NCBI GenBank assembly: GCA_902606505.1
Contig: CACLGU010000007.1
Location: 1 to 44,433 of the forward strand
Length of the DNA: 44,433 nucleotides
Direction: 5' to 3'
DNA from: an uncultured Prochlorococcus sp.
GTDB lineage: Bacteria; Cyanobacteriota; Cyanobacteriia; PCC-6307; Cyanobiaceae
Part shown: positions 1,789 to 2,197 of the stretch, piece by piece
Numbering within the stretch: the first letter of the stretch is position 1
Layout of the letters: every line of letters begins with the position of its first letter
Notes under the pieces: generated by a model
Databases searched by the model: none
What the model saw: only the letters and a program-made list of their open reading frames with translations
Told to the model about the DNA's origin: nothing
Made by a program: the position numbers and the translations under genes

Positions 1789-1860
1789 GCCCTTGTAGCT
1801 CAGCGGTAGAGCACTCCCTTGGTAAGGGAGAGGTCTCGGGTTCAAGTCCCGACGAGGGCA
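1789..1860 (+). tRNA. tRNA-Thr (GGU)
   Basis: 72 nt. The acceptor stem GCCCTTG pairs with CGAGGGC, followed by discriminator A1860. The anticodon stem CTCCC/GGGAG holds loop TTGGTAA with anticodon GGT at 1821-1823, and the T arm is CGGGTTCAAGTCCCG. A decayed tyrosine-integrase fragment begins about 140 bases downstream, so the 3' half of this gene is a likely former phage or island attachment site. I did not see a second copy of the 3' half in the window. Confidence 0.97.
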
Positions 1861-1918
1861 CTCGCGGGATAGTTTGGTATCAGTGAGATTACCACTATTG
1901 CACAAAGAAATTATTCAG

Positions 1919-1950
1919 AAGTGGACGTCTGTTTTCGGGTCCACTTTTCT
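1919..1950 (+). terminator. hairpin, probable terminator of the tRNA transcript
   Basis: AAGTGGAC (1919-1926) pairs perfectly with GTCCACTT (1939-1946) around a 12-base loop, followed by a T-rich run (TTCTGTTTT). It lies 58 bases after tRNA-Thr and before the integrase remnant. The loop is longer than usual for an intrinsic terminator, so a processed or phage-derived hairpin is also possible. Confidence 0.5.
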
Positions 1951-2000
1951 GTTTTAAAGGCAGATATCTTGAGGTGCATCACACAAACGATGAAACCGAA

Positions 2001-2197
2001 ATGGCAACAATCAGAAAATCAGAAGAAGCGGCAGCGGCTGGCAGGTCCTTATAAGAAGGAAGAATTATACAGGCCCGAGGTCCAGAAATTTCCATTCCAG
2101 CGATCTGGCTGAATCCTGGGCAGATGCAGTCGAAGAGAGGACAAAAATAGTTTTTCCGAATATCCCTATCACCCTGGGAGAGGCAATCAAGACATAA
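2001..2197 (+). pseudogene. decayed N-terminal fragment of a phage-type tyrosine integrase
   Basis: From 2018 to the stop at 2195-2197 one frame reads through GSGWQVLIRRKNY, SRNFHSSDLAESWADAVEE and PITLGEAIKT. This is the usual N-terminal arm-binding pattern of phage and island integrases: W-Q-V-x-I-R-R-K, then a conserved TF/NF basic turn, then AESWA-x-x-VE, then LGEAI. A plausible start, ATG at 2001 (MATIRKS), is in a different frame, so at least one indel lies around 2015-2025. The frame then stops before the SAM-like domain, and no catalytic domain (R...HxxR...Y) is seen downstream. The fragment is richer in G and C than its surroundings. Position just after tRNA-Thr is classic for an integrase left by a mobile element. 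Inference, strong by pattern but not searched. Confidence 0.62.

Follow-up and report, generated by a model that had tools for sequence, protein, structure and literature searches.

Coding sequence that breaks off shortly after a tRNA gene raises the question of what once stood there and how much of it the cell has kept. The window examined here (the whole stretch of 44,433 nucleotides, from an uncultured Prochlorococcus whose single-cell genome comprises 69 contigs and is 76% complete) begins with genes that we take, on our own reading, to be miaE- and aroQ-like. These lie ahead of two plus-strand tRNA genes identified by ARAGORN, tRNA-Tyr(GTA) at 1697..1779 and, 9 bases after it, tRNA-Thr(GGT) at 1789..1861. 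The original prediction was that an integrase N-terminal relic follows tRNA-Thr in a stretch of raised G+C, with its likely ATG at 2001 in another frame, and that it marks a mobile element that inserted at the tRNA gene and then decayed. The composition agrees, as G+C is 0.448 for 1862-2220 versus 0.327 for the whole window and 0.255 for 2221-2463. Translation agrees as well: the frame from 2003 to 2197 reads ...RRSGSGWQVLIRRKNYTGPRSRNFHSSDLAESWADAVEERTKIVFPNIPITLGEAIKT before its stop codon, and the ATG at 2001 is in another frame.

The integrase remnant and its lesions

The identity of the frame, and with it the predicted insertion and decay of an element at this tRNA site, was borne out by other Prochlorococcus genomes that have intact homologues at the identical place. 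These relatives encode a 321-aa ORF beginning MATIRRSGSGWQVLIRRKNY in the same position directly after tRNA-Thr, and the intact integrase of one of them, searched against the genome under study, matches 2009-2194 with 77% identity (E 9e-26). By comparison with the intact relatives, plus-strand positions 2001..2190 represent a frameshifted 5' integrase remnant of about 58 of 321 codons. The Pfam integrase model PF00589 covers residues 160-317 of the intact relative protein (E 6.8e-23), and PHROGs assigns that protein to phrog_1, integrase (E 4.9e-49). The PF00589 catalytic domain is present in the intact relative and absent from the window copy, which is a pseudogene because the sequence after integrase codon ~58 is deleted. 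A profile search for integrase similarity did not go as the prediction had expected, in that the relic fragment alone matched no Pfam or PHROGs family at E up to 10. We rejected this null result as a refutation of the integrase, since the intact relatives settle the matter and the models cannot be expected to recognize so short a fragment: an N-terminal piece of 59-64 aa cannot reach a Pfam model that covers only residues 160-317. Comparison with solved structures gave weak matches, the best at E 3e-5 (a protein named Int) and 3.6e-5 (HP1 integrase). A protein search of the same genome found no other copy of the relic's integrase; the genome has two other PF00589 matches (G000:C9:216-641 and C12:35125-35295), one of them under the cut-off and neither, by that protein search, of the relic's family.

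Near its start the gene contains an exact, frame-shifting 8-bp tandem duplication (2009..2024, plus strand), evident both in the sequence and in the alignment columns. Where relatives read ATGGCAACAATCAGAAGAAGC, the window has AATCAGAA in tandem, at 2009-2016 and 2017-2024, and the alignment columns for 2009-2016 hold a letter in at most one of 42 other haplotypes. It is this duplication that puts the ATG at 2001 out of frame. Farther along, at 2179..2190, is the junction of a first deletion: integrase homology stops at 2190 and homology to the region upstream of an hli-like cassette starts at 2179, the 9 to 12 bases shared at the junction being due to both parent sequences holding AGAGGCAAT(C/T)AA. 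Measured on an intact 24.3-kb relative, the deletion joins integrase codon ~58 to cargo 17 kb away and, as we read it, also cuts a small minus-strand ORF, a putative gene. The junction pattern occurs in one of 266 genomes, the window's own, and in none of the 265 others. Other deletions connect the left arm or the integrase to the same cassette in L042, G120 (L079), L067, and G127 (L089); no two of these share breakpoints with each other, nor does any share them with the window.

Just past the first junction, window positions 2186-2314 recur at 72-73% identity elsewhere in the same genome, on a different contig (G000:C19:8161-8276). In L117 (G144), at ~10780-10877 reversed, the flank of the cassette runs directly into the 3' half of tRNA-Thr at a shared GCACTCCC, which reads as a probable further short-homology deletion, at the right end.

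The intact element and its tRNA ends

A genus search located the element's left end in at least 51 of 199 other genomes, counting matches that extend to query position 224 or beyond, i.e., at least 59 bases past tRNA-Thr. The full integrase ORF is present in 19 of 29 fetched loci, a proportion that favors intact copies as the 29 were the best-scoring of the at least 51; the other 10 loci have ORFs of 34 to 226 aa, one of them lacking the matching start. The full copies are under purifying selection, with a dN of 0.085 and a dS of 0.565 (153 pairs, 18 equal-length copies). Private substitutions number 12 in the window versus 0-6 in each of the 19 full copies, a count that takes in a few columns past 2190. 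Of the 35 named loci encoding relatives of the relic, 33 bear the title Prochlorococcus; the other two are an uncultured Synechococcaceae and, at 52% identity, a Rhodoplanes contig. Over the 402 bases from tRNA-Thr through the relic the window matches relatives at up to 94%; this includes the plus-strand left arm between tRNA-Thr and the integrase start (1862..2000), which aligns with integrase-bearing relatives and beyond 1889 is absent from the empty-site genomes G171 and G128.

The ends of the element are clearest in G109, in which a 97-bp block at 179 has a 100% identical second copy at 24478, the two enclosing one 24.3-kb stretch. The block consists of the last 15-16 bases of tRNA-Tyr, which open it at both ends of intact elements, the spacer, and the whole tRNA-Thr. 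The window contains its left copy (1765-1861, plus strand). Direct tRNA repeats (G109, G170, G024, and others) together with the empty sites of G171 and G128 identify a tRNA-targeted integrative element in the relatives; in the window itself the left copy alone is left. The span between blocks is 17-24 kb in G024, G042, G109, and G170, and the flank after the right block of G109 resembles the empty-site genomes. Between its blocks G109 has the integrase (415), a defense-like cluster, and the cassette at 17936-18633. The cluster (L072, element coordinates 1549-15215 counted from the tRNA-Tyr side) encodes a C5 methyltransferase, Vsr, a Z1 protein matching MzaC, and PDC-M33-like proteins, as well as a DUF4420 protein with a weak match to MzaD (E 1e-5). 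Judged by its ORFs, G024 has a similar but different defense-like set.

The right-arm pattern was found in 21 of 266 genomes, and in all 21 the arm abuts the tRNA-Tyr tail (four have a base change in the tail or at its first base); ARAGORN accepts the tRNA-Thr that follows in 19. Among 34 stretches there are 17 distinct distal copies (L043 and G095, which look like the same contig, being counted once), of which 13 start at the tRNA-Tyr tail and four inside tRNA-Thr (G144, G095, G060, and G127). ARAGORN accepts all 34 of the left tRNA-Thr copies and 10 of the 17 distal ones. Because the right arm abuts the tRNA-Tyr tail plus a whole or decayed tRNA-Thr in 21 of 21, and because of this difference in tRNA recognition between left and distal copies, we tentatively propose, at somewhat less than even odds, that the element replaces the host gene. 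The family would have its crossover at the tRNA-Tyr 3' end and bring along a complete tRNA-Thr, thus rebuilding a two-gene unit that would otherwise be split, and the host tRNA-Thr, now at the far end and away from its promoter, would decay or be deleted. The tRNA-Thr of the window would then be the element-delivered copy, on which the cell would now depend. Alternatively, the crossover may lie within tRNA-Thr itself, given a long homologous attP; the spacer and tRNA sequence variants fit crossover at the tRNA-Tyr tail as well as inside tRNA-Thr. A limited literature search brought up no description of an entire tRNA gene being repeated by a Prochlorococcus element.

In G041 (C1:367600-407400; L073 and L074) three copies of tRNA-Thr line up over about 37 kb. 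The two distal ones are followed by the element's left end, one with a 19-aa integrase stub, so that the elements seem to be stacked on older remnants. Distal tRNA-Thr copies that start in the anticodon stem, with an unlike arm ahead, occur in L089 (G127; 4686-4732, reversed stretch) and L084 (G060; 405-448), and these probably belong to another element class that uses the anticodon loop of this tRNA-Thr as its crossover site.

Retained cargo and the right border

Comparison with relatives places the retained cargo at 2191..3514. It begins with the end of the small minus-strand ORF (2191 on) and continues with hli-like genes at 2464-2673 and 2673-2933 and ORFs at 2934-3161 and 3356-3514. The hli-like ORFs score 18.1 and 21.6 bits against Pfam, below the cut-off of 22.3; we named them Hli from a motif and presume them to be light-protection-like. 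Together with its upstream sequence, the cassette is found in 26 of 199 other genomes (90% identity or higher across 840 or more of the 939 bases). Twelve of these carry it on the tRNA-pair contig within 40 kb, and a 13th, G199, has the right arm of the element 6 kb downstream of it on one contig. The single contig of G041 puts it about 696 kb from the tRNA pair site, and in G004 it is on another contig; most of the remaining cassette genomes are split into draft contigs that do not place it. The cassette thus behaves as cargo of more than one place, and its occurrence away from the site is why we consider its arrival with this integrase likely, not proven.

After the cargo, positions 3574..3653 are part of the element's right arm, aligned to G109 and G011 and over shorter or longer stretches to G024, G064, and L067. 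The alignment stops at 3653 in all five, 41 bp short of the right-hand block, and the host flank restarts at 3642-3663 in four of the five, G011 having another flank. This places a second deletion junction at 3642..3663, at which the window lacks about 41 bp of arm, the 97-bp right-hand block with its tRNA-Thr, and roughly 116-138 bp of flank. A second tRNA-Thr 3' half had been expected to the right; the window contains no second tRNA-Thr 3' end with up to 3 mismatches allowed, and a repeat search returned the two hli copies along with short pairs. What intact relatives repeat is the 97-bp block with the whole tRNA-Thr instead of a tRNA half. The proposal that the genes up to about 9290 are cargo also fails, because the sequence from about 3642 to thiD is collinear with empty-site G171 and G128, except for about 5104-6516. 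What is left of the cargo region is about 2191-3653, the remnant as a whole extends by this comparison over about 1.8 kb (1862-3653), not 7.4 kb, and 3664..9288 is resident flank.

Within that flank, the strain-variable stretch 5104-6516 is absent from G171 and G128. Relatives of its ORFs at 5770-6273 lie within the elements of G042, G041, G170, and G024 and, in G192, within the flank, so that genes seem to pass between flank and element.

Origin of the remnant and its relation to known islands

We conclude, with a probability of about 0.92, that an integrative element encoding its own tyrosine recombinase has been disarmed and stripped by a frameshift and two deletions, leaving a small cassette. 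Sequence comparison brings out the homology, both integrase lesions, both junctions, and the empty site; the order of events, with slippage and short-homology deletion as causes, would be as follows. The element would have integrated at the tRNA-Tyr/tRNA-Thr pair, with its integrase about 140 bp after tRNA-Thr and a second tRNA block as its far end. The 8-bp tandem duplication would have thrown the integrase out of frame, a deletion between two matches of 9-12 bp would have dropped the rest of the gene and most cargo, and a second deletion would have dropped the right end with the second tRNA-Thr. Left behind would be tRNA-Thr beside tRNA-Tyr, a dead integrase stub, the hli-like cassette, and part of the right arm. 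The cassette may have come in with the same element and been kept because it is useful.

The most credible competitor, although improbable, is that stub and cassette belonged to separate elements, stacked at the tRNA pair, which the deletion then fused. Stacking does exist, as the three tRNA-Thr copies of G041 (two of them followed by this element's left end) demonstrate, and the cassette is also found at other places; yet in G109, G144, and G011 it lies within the interval opened by this integrase with no full block between, and the right arm after the window cassette is the same kind as in those elements. A prophage remnant, as opposed to a cargo-carrying integrative element, is very unlikely. 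The enzyme is a phage-type integrase and 606 phage records contain a similar one, but all are below 60% identity, one IMG/VR pattern scan of viral contigs found no relative, and the ten largest ORFs of the intact G109 element are defense-like or unknown, with no virion family in Pfam or PADLOC. Least probable of all, to the point of being barely tenable, is that the stub works as a short gene in its own right, encoding a domesticated DNA-binding fragment from the N-terminus that the cell has kept. Short ORFs from the same start do occur elsewhere (34, 41, 56, 63, 82, 82, and 89 aa among the 29 loci), but their endpoints vary between strains, and we dropped a conserved short gene because these lengths differ. 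In addition, the start codon in the window does not stand in the conserved frame, and the junction is confined to one of 266 genomes.

Among known systems, the tycheposons of Prochlorococcus come closest by description, and were reportedly presented in Hackl et al. 2023, Cell 186:47. The disarmed integrative element favored here belongs to a kind already known, as tRNA-bounded tyrosine-recombinase islands of Prochlorococcus are described in the available parts of three sources (PMC10872708, PMC10187409, PMC11389934). In the accessible text of PMC10872708, tycheposons are worded as having a tyrosine recombinase, a tRNA border, cargo, and a size of 4-200 kb. Like them, the relatives have a tyrosine recombinase beside a tRNA gene and variable cargo, in Prochlorococcus, with 17-24 kb between blocks, and G109 (24.3 kb), for example, fits that wording, while the 1.8-kb window remnant, a dead one, falls short of it. 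The repeat here differs in being the whole tRNA-Thr plus the tRNA-Tyr tail. We call the element tRNA-targeted, integrative, and tycheposon-like, a likeness drawn by description, not by integrase clade. The integrase family at tRNA-Phe/tRNA-Cys, as far as the available part of PMC10187409 describes it, shares a picocyanobacterial tyrosine integrase, variable islands, and restriction/modification cargo, but its integrases are >350 aa and use other tRNAs, versus 321 aa at tRNA-Tyr/tRNA-Thr here, recognized by PF00589 and PHROGs. The tRNA-Met/ansA island of MED4 and MIT9515 is likewise tRNA-bounded and variable, with hli genes, but lies at another tRNA and locus, and the accessible part of PMC2784084 describes no integrase stub with traceable lesions.

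The window feature is thus a well-resolved remnant of a known kind, and the repeat of the whole tRNA-Thr with the tRNA-Tyr tail at both ends of intact relatives is less usual. It shows cleanly how, in a streamlined lineage, a cell disarms a mobile element while retaining a little of the cargo: by one frameshift and two short deletions, each legible against intact relatives, and it corrects the extent of the island to about 1.8 kb instead of 7.4 kb. With a family that has a whole tRNA gene at both ends, replacement of a host tRNA by a mobile element becomes testable in Prochlorococcus.
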